IMG/VR virus record: IMGVR_UViG_3300042863_002281
Coordinates: 1-43,171 of that record
Length of the DNA stretch: 43,171 nt
From: a virus
Reading direction: 5' to 3' (one strand)
Shown here: piece after piece, positions 4,205 to 41,753 of the stretch
Layout: every line of letters begins with the position of its first letter
Position numbering within the stretch: position 1 is the stretch's first letter
Translations under genes and position numbers: made by a program
Notes under the pieces: model-generated
Seen by the model: only the letters and a program-made list of their open reading frames with translations
What the model was told of the DNA's origin: nothing
The model's database searches: none

Positions 4205-4885
4205 ATGACTATAGGACAAGATTTTCAAAACTATTACGTAAAACATTTAGGTAAACCATCTTTGGATTTACATAATTTTTCAAACCATATTGAGTCGTCA
4301 ATGACTCCGTACATTCTTGAGGAAAGAGAATTGAGAGCAACTCAAATCGATATCTTTTCAAGATTAATGAGAGATAGAATTTTATGGGTTGCAGGTCCTG
4401 TTAATGACCACATGTCAACTATTGTTCAAGCACAATTAATGTTCTTGGATTCTAACGACAAGGCGGACATTACGATGCATATTGACTCACCAGGTGGAAG
4501 TGTAAAATCAGGGTTATCTATGGTTGATGTTATGAACTATATTGCCTGTGATATTAGAACAATTAATACAGGTATGGCAGCATCTATGGGTTCGGTATTG
4601 TTGGGAGCGGGGACTAAAGGTAAACGAAGTTCTTTGAAGTATTCAAGAACTATGTTACATCAATCTTCAGGAGGTGCTGGAGGTAATATTCAAGACGCTC
4701 GAGTTACATTTAAAGAGTGGGAAAAAATCAACGATACATTATTTGACCTTTTAGGTGAATATTGTGGTAAAACCGCAGAACAAGTTAAACTTGATGCTAG
4801 TCGTGATTTATGGTTGGATAGTCAAGAGGCGTTAGATTACGGAATTATTGACGAAATTGTTAAAACAAAAAAGAAGGGTGTTTAA
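4205..4885 (+). CDS. clpP: ClpP-like ATP-dependent protease subunit
   Basis: The 226-residue product is a complete ClpP serine peptidase with an intact triad: Ser127 in GMAASMGS, His152 in RTMLHQSSGG and Asp201 in ASRDLW. The substrate-strand motif SPGGSV is at 95-100. Its N-terminal region (SSMTPYILEERELRATQIDIFSRLM) is the extended form seen in Bacteroidota ClpP, which suggests it was captured from such a host. ClpP normally pairs with ClpX or ClpA/C; no Clp ATPase is in the window, so it may use host unfoldases. It could alter host proteolysis or help head maturation. It has its own promoter and terminator and so is a single-gene unit. Confidence 0.93.
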   Translation: MTIGQDFQNYYVKHLGKPSLDLHNFSNHIESSMTPYILEERELRATQIDIFSRLMRDRILWVAGPVNDHMSTIVQAQLMFLDSNDKADITMHIDSPGGSVKSGLSMVDVMNYIACDIRTINTGMAASMGSVLLGAGTKGKRSSLKYSRTMLHQSSGGAGGNIQDARVTFKEWEKINDTLFDLLGEYCGKTAEQVKLDASRDLWLDSQEALDYGIIDEIVKTKKKGV

Positions 4886-4971: not shown

Positions 4972-5685
4972 TTAGACTGCTTTAGCAATTGCTTCTTTAC
5001 CCTTATCGAGTAATCCGCCAAAACCTCCACTGTCCGCCATTCCAGTCTTTAATTTATCATAAACACCAGATGCTTTATCATTCATTTTTCCAAATAATTC
5101 ACAAACAATACCACTAAGTTGTTTTTCTAAATTGTTTGCAAATGCGGTATCTTTAACTACACCACCTAAGGCGTTTCTTATAAATGTATATCCACTACCA
5201 GAAAGACCTTTGTCATTTTGAATCATCATCACTACGGCCTCTGAAAGTGAGTTGGCAATTAAAGTTGTTAACGCCTCGCAACTTTTGAGGGCTTTGGCAA
5301 GCTCTAACGGATTCGATGTTATAAATGAAACCAAGAAATTTTTAAAGTAACCTCCAAGTCCAATAGAACTTAAAAGAGAATTAACCAAAGGTTCAACAAT
5401 AGTCTCAACGGCTCCTCCAAACGAATTACCAAAGATTTTACCTAAAAAATCCATCAAATTTTCGTTTACCATACCTTGTTCATCAAGATATCTAATCTCT
5501 TCTAAAAGAGAGTACATCATTTTTTGTTGTTTCTCTTCAGATAACTTGTGAAAGTTTCTTGCGTTACTCTCAGATTCAACAATCATCATGATTCTACTTT
5601 CAACTAACTTTTGTTCAATTAAAAGTTTCTCTTTTTTTTCTTTAGTCTCTATAATAGACTTTTTGATTTGTTTTTTTAACATCAT
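4972..5685 (-). CDS. Probable internal virion protein with N-terminal propeptide
   Basis: The 237-residue protein begins with a very basic, helical stretch that reaches LLIE/Q at residues 21-25. That is the [LIVM]-x-E/Q pattern shared by several genes in this window and similar to T4 prohead-protease sites. Further on (about 80-135) is a Gly-rich, amphipathic to hydrophobic region (FGNSFGGAVETIVEPLVNSL, SSIGLGGYFKNFLVSFI) that could enter a membrane, and a small-residue C-terminus. No known family. It is the last gene of the minus-strand run 8002-4972, 8 bases after its upstream partner. My inference is a packaged, ejected protein. Confidence 0.7.
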   Translation of the reverse strand: MMLKKQIKKSIIETKEKKEKLLIEQKLVESRIMMIVESESNARNFHKLSEEKQQKMMYSLLEEIRYLDEQGMVNENLMDFLGKIFGNSFGGAVETIVEPLVNSLLSSIGLGGYFKNFLVSFITSNPLELAKALKSCEALTTLIANSLSEAVVMMIQNDKGLSGSGYTFIRNALGGVVKDTAFANNLEKQLSGIVCELFGKMNDKASGVYDKLKTGMADSGGFGGLLDKGKEAIAKAV

Positions 5686-5693
5686 TGTTTTTT

Positions 5694-6689
5694 TTACTCA
5701 ATTCTCCATTTAGAATCCGATAATGGCCCACCTTCTTTATTACCTTTAAGAATATCCACATAATTATCAATTCTACTTAGAATTCCTCCCCATTTACCTT
5801 CAAATTCATTGGCACATGCCTGAACTTTTTCTTTCATCGGTAATAGAGTGTTTGGTTCAACACGTTTTTTAGTTCTCCAAGCTTCGTAATACGCTTCAAT
5901 AGTATCTCTACAGTCTCTTTTACTTGTTGGAGTCTGATTAGAAATTGCTTTAGTAAATTGTTGTTCAATATTACCTCCGTCAGCACCCACTACATTTTTT
6001 GGTGGGAAAAACATAACTAAATCTTCAGCGAACAATGTTCCTGCAGGATAAACAACTTTAGAACTCCAAGTTTGAGCTTCTTCGGCATCTAAATCTTTTC
6101 TTAATTTACCACCTAAGTCAGTATATTTTTTAATAACTTTAATTTGTTCAGGTGTTAATCCTCCTGTAACTCCTTTATTAATAATACTTCTGTATAGTGT
6201 CACACCATTAACAACTTTCTTTTCGAACATTTGTGGGTTCTCCAAGTTCTCACGAGTTGTTTTAATATCTTTAGCCTCAGCCCATCCACCTTCTTGTTGT
6301 ACTAAAGCAGTGTCAGCCGCGTTTGCCGCTTGTGTTGCCGCAGTAACCGCTTGTGCAGCCGCTTGTTGAACTTCCGTACAATCCAATTTACCTGGAAGGA
6401 ATTGGAATTTACCGTTAGCATCAAAAATACCAGCTCTACCGTCAGCAAAGAAATATCTAAATTTACCAGGAGTTTTTGTACTCTCTTGTTTAATTGCAAA
6501 TTGTAATGCAGGATTCTTAGTTTGCATTGTTACAATTTTACCGTTCTTTACACATCCGTCAGTTAATATTTTATTTAACTTACTTTTTAAATCAGCATCA
6601 ACTTGTTCTGAAATTAAAGGTTTTTTCATTTTGGAATGCATTTCCAAAATCGCCTCTTTATCTTTTTGAGTAATATTGTTCATTTTCAT
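5694..6689 (-). CDS. Probable internal virion protein with N-terminal propeptide
   Basis: The first 29 residues form a charged amphipathic helix ending in PLISE/Q (Glu28), the clearest example of the shared leader. The body (331 aa in total) has no family I can name. It includes an Ala/Gln-rich segment around residues 108-130 and a C-terminal region with conserved-looking Trp and Cys (KRDCRDTIEAYYEAW, KWGGILSRIDNYVDIL). It lies between two other leader-bearing genes, 12 bases from the upstream one and 8 from the downstream one, so all three are presumably expressed together late in infection. Confidence 0.72.
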   Translation of the reverse strand: MKMNNITQKDKEAILEMHSKMKKPLISEQVDADLKSKLNKILTDGCVKNGKIVTMQTKNPALQFAIKQESTKTPGKFRYFFADGRAGIFDANGKFQFLPGKLDCTEVQQAAAQAVTAATQAANAADTALVQQEGGWAEAKDIKTTRENLENPQMFEKKVVNGVTLYRSIINKGVTGGLTPEQIKVIKKYTDLGGKLRKDLDAEEAQTWSSKVVYPAGTLFAEDLVMFFPPKNVVGADGGNIEQQFTKAISNQTPTSKRDCRDTIEAYYEAWRTKKRVEPNTLLPMKEKVQACANEFEGKWGGILSRIDNYVDILKGNKEGGPLSDSKWRIE

Positions 6690-6701: not shown

Positions 6702-7727
6702 TTAGAAATCGGTATTGTCACCGCTAATACGTTGTTCTTCACCTGAAATCTCAGGTTCAACCTCAGTTGGTTTAGATTGACATATTTTAGTCACATCAGC
6801 ATCTGTAAATGTTGTAAATCCTTTACCACTTAAAGCTGCTTGGGTTTTTGGTCCAAACTTACCGTCAGTAACTAATCCTAAACATCCTTGTACTTTAGCA
6901 ATTGTGTCGGATTTACATCCTTTTGAGTAAGTTCCTGAACATGGTTTATATCCACCTGTTTTGGAACCTCCTCCTCCACCTTTTTTGGAGCCTCCTCCAC
7001 CTGAACCTCCTTCATCTTTAATAGATAATAAACTATCTTCAACAATATCTCTTAATGGTCTATAAATTTTTAACCATTCTGAAGTTTGGTCAAAATCATC
7101 ATCTAAAAATTCCAACAAATCACCTTCACTACCATAATCTTTATTAAATCTTGTGACTAAAGCACAAAAATCAGAAGCCGTTTTTAAAGATTTAAAAGCC
7201 CCGTATACCGCTTCCTCATCAGTCCCTACACCTTTCATTGCGTCATATAATTGGTCTGATAAATTTCTGACATCTCCGTCACTAATACCTCTCTTAAGTT
7301 TATCAATTTTGGATTTATCGGTTGTACAATATTGGACAATTTTGTCAACTTTAGCTTTGGCATTGTCTTTATCCAAGTACCAAATAACTAAGGGAGTTAA
7401 TGCTAACGCAGCAGCTCCACCTAAAACCGCACCTCCTAAGGCCGTGGCAGCAACTGCCCCTCCTGCAATATTAGGTGCTAATGTGGCACCAAGAGTAAAT
7501 GCTGTTCCTGTGGCTCCTCCAGCAACACTAGCTCCAGCTGCGGCAGCTCCTCCTGCGGCAGCGGCACCTAAACCTGTACCTGCGGCTGTTGCAATTCCTG
7601 TTTTTGTTAAAGTATCTTGTTCTGAAATTACTTTTTTATTTTCATCCAAAGTTTTAGATGAATCGTATTCCATCATTAACTTTATTCTCTGTAACGCCTC
7701 TTCAGGGCTATATTTAGGTTGTACCAT
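6702..7727 (-). CDS. Tagged protein with glycine zipper, annexin-like and peptidoglycan-binding regions
   Basis: The 341-residue protein has several parts in order. The leader ends in VISE/Q (Glu36). A long Ala/Gly-rich hydrophobic region (about 45-118) is able to span a membrane. A segment resembling one annexin repeat (YDAMKGVGTDEEAVYGAFKS, about 167-186, with the GxGTDE signature) follows, then a Gly/Ser/Lys linker (about 244-262). Last is a peptidoglycan-binding-like domain (about 265-318: VQGCLGLVTDGKFGPKTQAA). Annexin-like is a similarity to one motif, not a family assignment. The combination suits a head- or tail-packed protein that inserts in the envelope and holds the wall during DNA entry; that role is inference. 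Confidence 0.75.
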   Translation of the reverse strand: MVQPKYSPEEALQRIKLMMEYDSSKTLDENKKVISEQDTLTKTGIATAAGTGLGAAAAGGAAAAGASVAGGATGTAFTLGATLAPNIAGGAVAATALGGAVLGGAAALALTPLVIWYLDKDNAKAKVDKIVQYCTTDKSKIDKLKRGISDGDVRNLSDQLYDAMKGVGTDEEAVYGAFKSLKTASDFCALVTRFNKDYGSEGDLLEFLDDDFDQTSEWLKIYRPLRDIVEDSLLSIKDEGGSGGGGSKKGGGGGSKTGGYKPCSGTYSKGCKSDTIAKVQGCLGLVTDGKFGPKTQAALSGKGFTTFTDADVTKICQSKPTEVEPEISGEEQRISGDNTDF

Positions 7728-7743
7728 GTGAATGTATTTTATT

Positions 7744-7751
7744 TATAAATA
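7744..7751 (-). promoter_or_regulatory. TATTTATA motif (candidate phage late promoter)
   Basis: Minus-strand TATTTATA, 16 bases upstream of the ATG at 7727. Confidence 0.5.
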
Positions 7752-28926: not shown

Positions 28927-29427
28927 ATGAAAAAATTATTATTATTGATGCTCTTACCATTTTTATTGGCATCACACCAACCAACCCAAGAACCTAAGAA
29001 GGTTCACATTCAATCTGTTGAGAACAAAATTCAAATTGGTTCTCTCGCAAAAAACAGAAACTTAACATTCGGAGTTAAGAACATTCTCTTAGAGAATTTA
29101 CAAGAGTTAAATTATGAAGTTACGGACTCAATTGAGAATTCGGATTACTCATTAAAAGTAGAATTATTATATTTCGATGTACTACAAACAAACTCTGGCG
29201 TTTCCGTATTTCACAAAAATAACAATGAAACTATTTTAAGAATCAAAGGTTATTTGTACGACAAAAACGGAAAAAAAGTGAAAGATTTCCTCGCGACAGG
29301 TAAGTCATCCGAAATTTCACTATCAACATTGATTATATCTGAAGGAGGTAATATAAATCAGACCTCCGTTTCTAATGTAATAAAAAAGTCCTGTGAGACA
29401 TTAATTTTTAATCTATTTAGTAAATGA
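28927..29427 (+). CDS. Small exported protein, first gene of envelope operon
   Basis: The 166-residue protein has a signal peptide (MKKLLLLMLLPFLLASH) and no lipobox. The mature part has an alpha/beta pattern (GVKNILLENLQELNYEV, YSLKVELLYFDVL, ILRIKGYLYDKNGKKVKDF). It is reminiscent of periplasmic or lipoprotein partners that assemble with CsgG-like channels, but I cannot place it in a family. Its stop overlaps the start of the T9SS cargo gene (ATGA). Confidence 0.72.
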   Translation: MKKLLLLMLLPFLLASHQPTQEPKKVHIQSVENKIQIGSLAKNRNLTFGVKNILLENLQELNYEVTDSIENSDYSLKVELLYFDVLQTNSGVSVFHKNNNETILRIKGYLYDKNGKKVKDFLATGKSSEISLSTLIISEGGNINQTSVSNVIKKSCETLIFNLFSK

Positions 29428-31319
29428 AAAAACTAATTTCGGTGGTATCCCTACTTTTAATGAGCATTGTAGGATACTCACAAACACCCGAAATCGGTCA
29501 TTTTCAACAGTTATCAACGATTAAGAGAGGAGACACTTTAGATGTCGCATGGTACTTCAAACCCGCAGTGGGGACGGATGTCAGGACCTTTCAAATCGAT
29601 TGGCAATACAAAAAGGCGTTGTTAACACATATATCGTCTTCTGTTGATGCGGCCGTGGCGGGTAATGCACCTGTATTAGATTTCAAGTCGTGGGAGAACT
29701 ACAAATACGGTTCTTACTCGAATGGAGTCTACAACTATGTGTCTGATTCTGACTGGTCGATTGGTAGAAACTATCTTATTCTAAGTAATGGTAGTCAAAT
29801 CAGTTCGAATGGTTATATCATTCGCAATAAGTTTAAAGTAAACGATGTTCCTTCTAATTTTGATGAGGATTCGGTACGAGTTAACTGGGCGAGAATGTTT
29901 AAACTCGATGGTACATCTATCGGAGACAATATCGCATCGTTATCTCATCAAGTATTGGACCTTAAGTTATTAGGTAACTTAACAATTTCTGGAAAGATAT
30001 GGTTCCCTTCAACCATAACGACTCAGACATTACCGACATTGTATTGTTACGATAACGTAACCAATGTTTTGGTGTCTCAAACCATTCCTGATTTAAATGG
30101 TAATTACACCTTTAATAACGTTGACGAAAACAAAACCTATAAAATTGAGGTTAGGTTCCCGTCGGCACAGTTGTCGTCAATAAGAGACAATGCTGTTACA
30201 ATATCTGACGCGGTGAAGGCATATAACGAATACATCAATACTGATGTAAATCAAAATATGACACGTCAATATCTTAGACATGGTTTGTCTTATTTAATTG
30301 GTGACATAAATTTGAGTCAATCTTTTGATGGTGGTGACCCTTACTCAATTTACGCATCTGTATCAGGGTTAGCACCGATAAACACAAGTAATCTTATCAA
30401 TGTGTTTACAAAAGAAACCTACGACTCTTTAGTTTTAGGTACGGACCAATGGACAACATGGCAAAACCATTCGAACAAAGGAATATTCCTAACAACTACT
30501 GTGGGTACCACAAACTTATCTTTAGACATCAAATACTTTGTTTTAGGTGATGTTGACAGAAGTCACTCTTCACCTGTATTTAACGGAACAACCGAAGTTT
30601 TAGCGGCGGTTTATAAAGGTCAGTTTGATGTAAACATCGCTAACTCATACGCAGTTGGAAGTCCAATGTATGTCCCATTCAATGTTTCAACAAATGGGTC
30701 GTTATCTAATGGATTACAATTTGAAATGAAGTATGATGTAACCAAAGTTAAATTTGATGAAATAGTTTCAAACATACAAGGTCCATGGTTACAATATGTA
30801 ACACATGATGACGTAAACGGAATCGTAAGATTCGGAGGAATGAATAACCAACAAAATGGGTCGCTACAAGGTGTAGCGACTCCATTTGTTTTAAAATTTT
30901 TAGCCAAAAATCCTAGTGAGGATATTAATTCAAGTGTTTCAATCAGAAGTTTAATGGATGCATCTCATAAAGATGGAGACCACTTCAACATTAACCTTTC
31001 AACAGGTATGATTGTATTATCATACAGAGCCAACAATCCTAATATAATAACCGCAACAGAACCAACGGTAACATTATATCCAAACCCTACTAACGGTATT
31101 GTTAATATTTCTATAGATTTATTACCTAAAACTAAAATGAACGCATCTATTTATAATAATATTGGTAGATTGGTAATGAATGTTGGGGATTTCACATCTG
31201 ACGAGTTTAATTTAAACCATAAAGAAACCGTAGACGTGGGAAACCTGATGAGTGGAGTTTATTACATTATTCTATCAGGATACAATAAAAAAATAACTAA
31301 ACCCTTTATTAAAAATTAA
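29424..31319 (+). CDS. T9SS-sorted secreted protein with cohesin/dockerin-like modules
   Basis: The 631-residue protein has a signal peptide (cut after VGYSQ, about residue 20) and a type IX secretion sorting tail at about 548-631. The tail signature is LYPNPTNG, then NNIGRLV, SGVYYIIL and a basic end KPFIKN. Between them are a beta-sandwich region, a calcium-loop-like GDINLSQSFDGGD and GDVDRSHSS (dockerin-like), and a cohesin-like module at about 405-520 (LQFEMKYDVTKVKFDEI, IVRFGGMN). In Bacteroidota such tails direct export across the outer membrane and attachment to surface LPS. The phage would therefore use the host's T9SS to display this protein. It is the centre of a polycistronic operon of exported proteins. 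Confidence 0.88.
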   Translation: MKKLISVVSLLLMSIVGYSQTPEIGHFQQLSTIKRGDTLDVAWYFKPAVGTDVRTFQIDWQYKKALLTHISSSVDAAVAGNAPVLDFKSWENYKYGSYSNGVYNYVSDSDWSIGRNYLILSNGSQISSNGYIIRNKFKVNDVPSNFDEDSVRVNWARMFKLDGTSIGDNIASLSHQVLDLKLLGNLTISGKIWFPSTITTQTLPTLYCYDNVTNVLVSQTIPDLNGNYTFNNVDENKTYKIEVRFPSAQLSSIRDNAVTISDAVKAYNEYINTDVNQNMTRQYLRHGLSYLIGDINLSQSFDGGDPYSIYASVSGLAPINTSNLINVFTKETYDSLVLGTDQWTTWQNHSNKGIFLTTTVGTTNLSLDIKYFVLGDVDRSHSSPVFNGTTEVLAAVYKGQFDVNIANSYAVGSPMYVPFNVSTNGSLSNGLQFEMKYDVTKVKFDEIVSNIQGPWLQYVTHDDVNGIVRFGGMNNQQNGSLQGVATPFVLKFLAKNPSEDINSSVSIRSLMDASHKDGDHFNINLSTGMIVLSYRANNPNIITATEPTVTLYPNPTNGIVNISIDLLPKTKMNASIYNNIGRLVMNVGDFTSDEFNLNHKETVDVGNLMSGVYYIILSGYNKKITKPFIKN

Positions 31320-41396: not shown

Positions 41397-41753
41397 TTAA
41401 TGCCATTGGCCCTTTTCATCCCATTTGTTCAAACAGTCATATCCTTGTTCCTCAAAATTACTTTCAGTACCTATCAAATTCACATTTTGTAATTGATTTA
41501 AAGAACACATATCAATATCCTCAAAATCGGCAAATTCACAATTAATGATTGCTAAATATTCTAAATTAGGTGGTAAGTTTTTTAATACTCTTCTAACCAT
41601 TTTTGGAGTTTGTTCAATTAAAGCAACCATTCCCTTTTTTCTATCAAATATATAATGTGGTTCATCTAATGAAAATTTAGTTTGCTCGTTAACCACCTTT
41701 TTAACTAATCTAGTTAGGTCTTTTTCTGTTAATCTTAATATTTTCTTTGCCAT
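41397..41753 (-). CDS. Small tagged protein, possible leucine-rich segment
   Basis: The start at 41753 (MAKKILRLTEKDLTRLVKKV) is preferred to an upstream in-frame start because it begins the leader. It also lies behind an A-rich leader and a TATTTATT motif. The leader ends VVNE/Q (Glu23). The mature part of the 118-residue protein has a leucine-rich-repeat-like pattern (LPPNLEYLAIINCEF, LNQLQNVNLIGTE) and one acidic end. Function unknown; likely packaged if the leader is a capsid tag. Confidence 0.7.
   Translation of the reverse strand: MAKKILRLTEKDLTRLVKKVVNEQTKFSLDEPHYIFDRKKGMVALIEQTPKMVRRVLKNLPPNLEYLAIINCEFADFEDIDMCSLNQLQNVNLIGTESNFEEQGYDCLNKWDEKGQWH

Follow-up and report, generated by a model that had tools for sequence, protein, structure and literature searches.

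The gene A locus

The stretch of DNA analysed here (the window) is the 43,171-base virus record IMGVR_UViG_3300042863_002281. Gene A was found to be an open reading frame of exactly 6702-7727 on the minus strand, which encodes 341 aa (Table 1). An earlier note had described a leader, a membrane-spanning glycine zipper, an annexin-like repeat and a wall-binding domain in one protein at this place; the four-part composition was confirmed and the coding strand is the minus strand. The gene has more than 25 distinct relatives on IMG/VR contigs, the longest of which measures 322 kb. A tblastn search of INPHARED with the gene A protein and with its relative from L031 returned no relative, so that no cultured one is at hand. 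Besides gene A the window contains a T4-type RNA ligase/tail-fibre attachment gene, a thymidylate synthase and an endolysin gene. A protein encoded at 29424-31319 (plus strand) has a type IX secretion sorting domain (Por_Secre_tail, 3.4e-11), and because of this domain a Bacteroidota host is suggested; the protein was not found in 13 related contigs. The phage that carries gene A is probably a large member of the T4 superfamily that infects Bacteroidota.

Table 1. Positions of gene A, its parts and neighbours, and of a further leader-bearing gene; an arrow marks a predicted cut
Feature	Position	Strand	Description	Basis
Gene C	4972..5685	-	237 aa; leader-like N-terminus LLIE24↓Q; all-helical; two invariant cysteines	
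Gene B	5694..6689	-	331 aa; leader of its own with the end LISE28↓Q; four cysteines conserved	
Gene A	6702..7727	-	leader, hydrophobic stretch, annexin repeat and PG-binding-like domain	>25 distinct relatives
PG-binding-like domain	6777..6950	-	residues about 260-317; four invariant cysteines (263, 271, 282, 316)	
Annexin repeat	7008..7280	-	single; residues about 150-240	sequence profiles, AlphaFold model, fold search
Asp211	7095..7097	-	aligns with the acidic residue that caps the type II Ca2+ site of annexins as a bidentate ligand	
Cys188	7164..7166	-	predicted disulfide partner of Cys134	
A-B calcium loop	7215..7232	-	GVGTDE, residues 166-171	
Cys134	7326..7328	-	predicted disulfide partner of Cys188	
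Hydrophobic stretch	7377..7619	-	Ala/Gly-rich; residues about 37-117, directly after the predicted cut	
Leader	7620..7727	-	residues 1-36, ending ISE↓Q; resembles a T4 capsid-targeting sequence	L/I-x-E rule of gp21 (PMC9026906)
Element TATTTATA	7744..7751	-	putative late promoter, 16 nt upstream of gene A	
Protein with widespread leader	41397..41753	-	leader RLTEKDLTRLVKKVVNE↓Q	

The neighbouring genes B and C have leaders of their own, which differ from that of gene A and also end in [LIV]xE↓Q. Neither a signal peptide nor a hydrophobic membrane segment was found in B. A pore-forming role was considered for C and dropped: its model is all-helical and has no fold match in the PDB, and no function is claimed for it. 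Relatives of the C-terminal part of B, which ends in GGPL..SxWRI, occur on the gene A leader in loci L057, L059, L063, L065 and L069, where the protein in the gene A position (slot A) has neither the annexin repeat nor the PG-binding-like C-terminus of the family. Beside the A-B-C cluster, at 4205-4885 on the plus strand, lies a gene for a ClpP-like protease that is present in 29 of 33 homologous loci and is up to 97% identical outside the virus of the window. Its match to phrog_94 (head maturation protease) does not make it a gp21; it is a ClpP (PF00574).

Upstream of gene A the element TATTTATA, which on the opposite strand reads as the T4 late element TATAAATA, occupies the same place in 27 of 28 homologous loci. 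Of its 13 copies in the window 9, including that of gene A, lie within 40 nt before an ORF, the genes being of a late type, versus 3 when the opposite orientation is counted; 20 other loci gave 55 and 21 out of 99. The element also precedes the endolysin gene, which fits a late promoter, and it is likely to be one.

The annexin repeat and its predicted calcium site

The annexin fold binds calcium and membranes and is familiar chiefly from animals and plants. The gene A protein contains MKGVGTDEE at residues 164-172, and in a phmmer search of the PDB with this protein alone annexins were listed at 1.2e-5. With a profile of nine phage domains the best 60 of 86 PDB matches were all annexins or annexin fusions. 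The best of these was annexin VI at 5.1e-35, a value that sums six repeats, the single repeats scoring up to 21.9 bits (i-E 1.4e-3). The AlphaFold model, built without templates, has helices A (150-165), B (171-179), C (184-198), D (204-211) and E (215-240), with pLDDT mostly 85-93. Foldseek ranked annexins or annexin fusions as the best 50 PDB matches of this model, and the closest superpositions have a probability of 1.00 and 1.7-2.1 Å over 69-75 residues. The best E-value, 0.087, is modest, as are the others, which is probably due to the use of the complete 341-residue model as query. The earlier note had made the annexin reading hang on the predicted structure, which thus bears it out with all five helices and annexins as its nearest folds. 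Only weak matches, mostly to uncharacterised Caudovirales proteins, were obtained from BFVD. The profile and model of gene C, run as controls, gave no annexin match. In a profile comparison by hhalign, Bacteroidota single-repeat annexins were matched with prob 99.5 (E 3.8e-22), versus prob 0.2 for a helical control profile. The window protein has no match to Pfam PF00191, to which 7 of 22 family members do match (best E 2.5e-5) and against which a Bacteroidota annexin of the known type scores 22.3 bits, below the cut-off of 25. Every relative examined has one repeat per protein and differs in this from the four-repeat core of eukaryotic annexins. As judged from sequence and model, the annexin fold of gene A is well supported, far beyond chance.

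The phage annexin profile scores Bacteroidota single-repeat proteins at up to 58 bits, versus about 22 for a vertebrate annexin repeat. An initial search of genome contigs with this profile yielded nothing, and a DNA pattern search made afterwards found the bacterial annexins. These are small Bacteroidota proteins (L141, L144-L146, L150, L153, L154, L156, L158, L161, L163, L164, L168, L171 and L172) with one annexin repeat and, in most, one membrane helix. Matches to the phage profile occur in 3 of the 296 Bacteroidota genomes sampled, and for L156 a close relative on viral contigs was not found. Many of the genes have similar surroundings, with genes for a metallopeptidase, for a lysozyme or a PG-binding protein and for numerous small membrane proteins, and because of this integrated phage-like elements may harbour some of the bacterial annexins in the literature.

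The type II Ca2+ site of annexins consists of GxGT and an Asp or Glu that comes 38 residues later. GxGTDE had been read beforehand as the signature of the annexin calcium loop, and GVGTDE does lie at the A-B loop with Asp211 aligned as the cap. The spacing in the window protein is 41, three more than the canonical 38; most of the canonical relatives (L030-L032, L041, L044, L046, L053 and L097) have exactly 38. Wherever the cap could be scored, members with a GxGT-type loop have Asp there; the L051-L056 subgroup falls outside this rule as not scorable. The sister clade with NDDE has Leu at the cap and no GxGT loop in 8 of 8 members, which probably represent one evolutionary event. Loop and cap are thus kept or lost together, as expected of a real ligand set, and their loss in the sister clade implies that calcium binding is not indispensable for every family member. 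Of the calcium-triggered step in DNA entry that had been envisaged for this protein, the intact Ca2+ site of the window protein stands, whereas the sister clade, lacking loop and cap, speaks against it as a property of the whole family. Calcium dependence is hypothesized here for the GxGT members, for which calcium-dependent membrane binding is plausible.

Flanking domains, leader and cargo

The hydrophobic stretch contains 27 Ala and 17 Gly among its 81 residues and has a best 19-residue Kyte-Doolittle mean of 1.95; over most of its length the confidence of the AlphaFold model is below 50. This is compatible with a membrane segment, as had been proposed, but the term glycine zipper proved too loose for a stretch with only three GxxxG steps. 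Membrane insertion of the protein would be a reasonable expectation. The PHROG matches of gene A to tape-measure proteins fall within the Ala/Gly-rich stretch and were rejected. For the C-terminal domain, the window protein itself has no Pfam match at all and a weak PHROG endolysin match (0.019). When the family was compared with PF09374 and PF01471, 13 of 22 members matched PG_binding_3 (best 2.6e-5) and 8 of 22 matched PG_binding_1 (best 3.2e-4), which makes peptidoglycan binding a reasonable reading of this domain.

Six cysteines are conserved in A, four in B and two in C. They are mostly lost in pairs, i.e. 134 with 188 of A in L036 and 46 with 104 of B in L039 and L044; the exceptions are L022 and L053, which each lack one aligned B cysteine. 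Such paired conservation suggests that the gene A protein works in an oxidising place such as the periplasm. As B lacks a signal peptide and a membrane segment, ejection would be a simpler route to such a place than Sec export.

The leader of gene A, MVQPKYSPEEALQRIKLMMEYDSSKTLDENKKVISE↓Q, was detected in 14 of 15 related contigs, in most of these 14 as a single copy per genome. In T4 the protease gp21 cleaves after L/I-x-E and the propeptides removed are 7-65 residues long (PMC9026906). With 36 residues and ISE↓Q the gene A leader fits this description, and in nearly all relatives [LIVM]-x-E lies between the conserved leader and the hydrophobic part, close before the latter. A gp21-family protease (PF03420) is encoded on 12 of the 15 related contigs searched; the 43,171-base window fragment itself gave no match to one, so that the protease is seen in relatives only. 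The gp23-type major capsid proteins of related phages have LINE↓A near residue 60, the expected place. With about 16 occurrences per 1000 residues the short motif [LIV]xE is a common one, and the case for packaging and cleavage is built on motif logic. Among 219 non-redundant proteins the density of [LIV]xEQ is 5.5 per 1000 residues at positions 20-40 versus 0.68 beyond position 75, an indication rather than a test since some of these proteins are homologous. We infer that a gp21-type protease cleaves after ISE36. Against packaging weighs that gene A and gp21 are tens of kb apart in related contigs and that head genes do not adjoin gene A. A second leader-like segment, e.g. ESVKKKRIFEQADLG, is present in the middle of the slot-A protein of L051, L052, L054, L055 and L056, and suggests a second processing site there.

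Annexin repeats were also found behind other leaders. Three phages without an annexin in slot A, or in which no such slot was found, have an annexin repeat elsewhere in the genome, preceded by LVNE↓Q in L185 (79 bits), by VIKE↓Q in L187 (28 bits) and by ISE↓Q in L186, where the annexin match is weak (20 bits). Leaders with VIKE↓Q precede annexin repeats in L195-L201 as well. The L185 leader also heads proteins that are no annexins, and similarity stops at residues 48-50 in most. The L187 leader was met on 51 distinct proteins, a few of them annexins, with mature parts that fall into 27 clusters and with similarity ending at residues 23-24 in most; retrieval with the peptide VKRVIKEQ biased this set towards a constant site but does not affect how diverse the mature parts are. 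This 23-residue leader, with a consensus close to MKKIIRLTESDLTRIVKRVIKE↓Q, is spread over many viral contigs (L194-L272) and heads the window protein at the far end of Table 1. It may be a signature by which proteins packaged in the heads of these phages can be recognised. The same leaders on unrelated mature parts form the pattern expected of exchangeable capsid-targeting sequences. The idea that the gene A protein is ejected, already voiced in the earlier note, hereby gains support: its leader obeys the T4 prohead-protease rule, the protease is present in related phages and annexin repeats are met again behind different leaders that end in this kind of site.

Proposed role and known systems

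Sequence and structure comparison provided the annexin repeat, the leader with its modularity, the conserved gene cluster and the paired cysteines; from these we infer packaging, cleavage, ejection, membrane and wall binding, and calcium dependence. The explanation that we consider best, and moderately probable as a whole, is that gene A encodes a head-packaged, protease-matured protein that is ejected into the envelope. It would be expressed late as a virion protein, its 36-residue leader would send it into the prohead and a gp21-type protease would remove this leader after ISE36. The mature protein would then comprise the hydrophobic Ala/Gly stretch, the annexin repeat and a disulfide-bonded PG-binding-like domain. 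It would leave the head with the DNA and act in the cell envelope, where the annexin repeat (with Ca2+ where the site is kept) and the hydrophobic stretch would hold it on membrane phospholipid and the C-terminal domain would anchor it to the wall. Together with the leader-bearing B and C it may help to form or steady the entry path. Against this explanation weighs that the slot-A protein of some phages (L057, L060, L065) has no annexin. More tentatively, large T4-like phages may package annexin repeats as a cargo that does nothing in the head, attaches to the phospholipid of the bacterial membrane on reaching periplasmic calcium and clamps the DNA-entry path between membrane and wall.

A somewhat unlikely alternative is that the protein is packaged and ejected, and that its annexin repeat is just a stable helical module that engages another protein (core, portal or B/C), calcium and lipid having no part in this. 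The sister clade, which keeps the fold after the loss of loop and cap, and the cap spacing of the window protein, three residues longer than usual, are in keeping with this, and less is known of single repeats than of annexins with four. However, the loop and the cap Asp occur jointly or not at all, in the manner of a ligand set, and annexin modules recur on several leaders. It is improbable that gene A encodes an inner-membrane protein of the infected cell instead of a head protein, involved for example in lysis or superinfection exclusion. Its N-terminus would then be cytoplasmic, the hydrophobic stretch a signal anchor and the annexin and PG-binding parts periplasmic, with which a membrane-level score directly after an N-terminus of 36-42 residues, the PG-binding-like domain and the conserved cysteines agree. 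Yet the leader fits the prohead-protease rule and annexin-bearing leaders are modular, B shares the leader logic and the paired cysteines while lacking a membrane segment, and the annexin proteins of L185 and L187 have leaders and no obvious membrane anchor. Still less probable is a place in the tail or baseplate, where the protein would bind the wall and its leader would guide an assembly step that has no link to the head. PHROG families of tape-measure proteins and virion endolysins are matched weakly, which points that way, but all these matches arise from low-complexity or PG-binding parts, no tail-family domain is present, the leader boundary fits the head protease and several leader-bearing proteins occur per genome. 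Chance or convergence on a short GxGTDE helix-loop motif, which the missing Pfam annexin match of the window protein alone might recommend, is scarcely credible and was rejected on the profile, hhalign and fold searches, as the profile similarity covers helices A-D, the whole fold is predicted with annexins as the best 50 PDB folds, and the gene C control profile and model lack such a match.

Many uncultured T4-like phages thus have annexin repeats in proteins that are apparently packaged, and a phage role for annexins becomes testable. There may be a bacterial or viral reservoir for the annexin fold, and the leaders define a large group of candidates for packaging in the head, which can be compiled from nothing but sequence.

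The internal core proteins gp14, gp15 and gp16 of T7 are ejected head proteins that act in the envelope during DNA entry, and gp16 acts on peptidoglycan. T7 belongs to another phage lineage, and no annexin is known among these proteins. In a survey of 2014 annexins were found in a few bacteria and in no viruses, and it was noted that viral relatives could bear on the origin of annexins (Kodavali et al. 2014, PMC3894181). No phage annexin was found in the open-licence literature searched, and the word annexin does not occur in either of two jumbo-phage reviews. The bacterial single-repeat annexins of that survey resemble the phage repeat in the five-helix arrangement, the GxGT loop and the acidic cap, and the closest scores are those of Bacteroidota proteins. 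The phage protein differs by its leader of the capsid-targeting type and its PG-binding-like domain, and its annexin has a conserved cysteine pair whereas almost no cysteines were reported in bacterial annexins (PMC3894181). With IPI-III and Alt of T4 (PMC9026906) it shares a short N-terminal propeptide that ends in L/I-x-E, in phages with gp21 and gp23 homologues, and a kind of leader that is exchangeable between unrelated cargo. The leader sequences differ, however, with 22-49 residues here versus 10 in the IPIII CTS, and here the cargo has envelope-type domains and its packaging is deduced. A single annexin domain has also been described in toxins of phage-tail-like (PVC-type) systems, for which an accessory role in breaching the membrane was proposed (Zhang et al. 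2012, PMC3482391). In both cases one annexin repeat is part of a protein delivered by a contractile phage-like machine, but in the present phages this machine would be a genome-delivery particle and the partner domain is PG-binding-like instead of a toxin.
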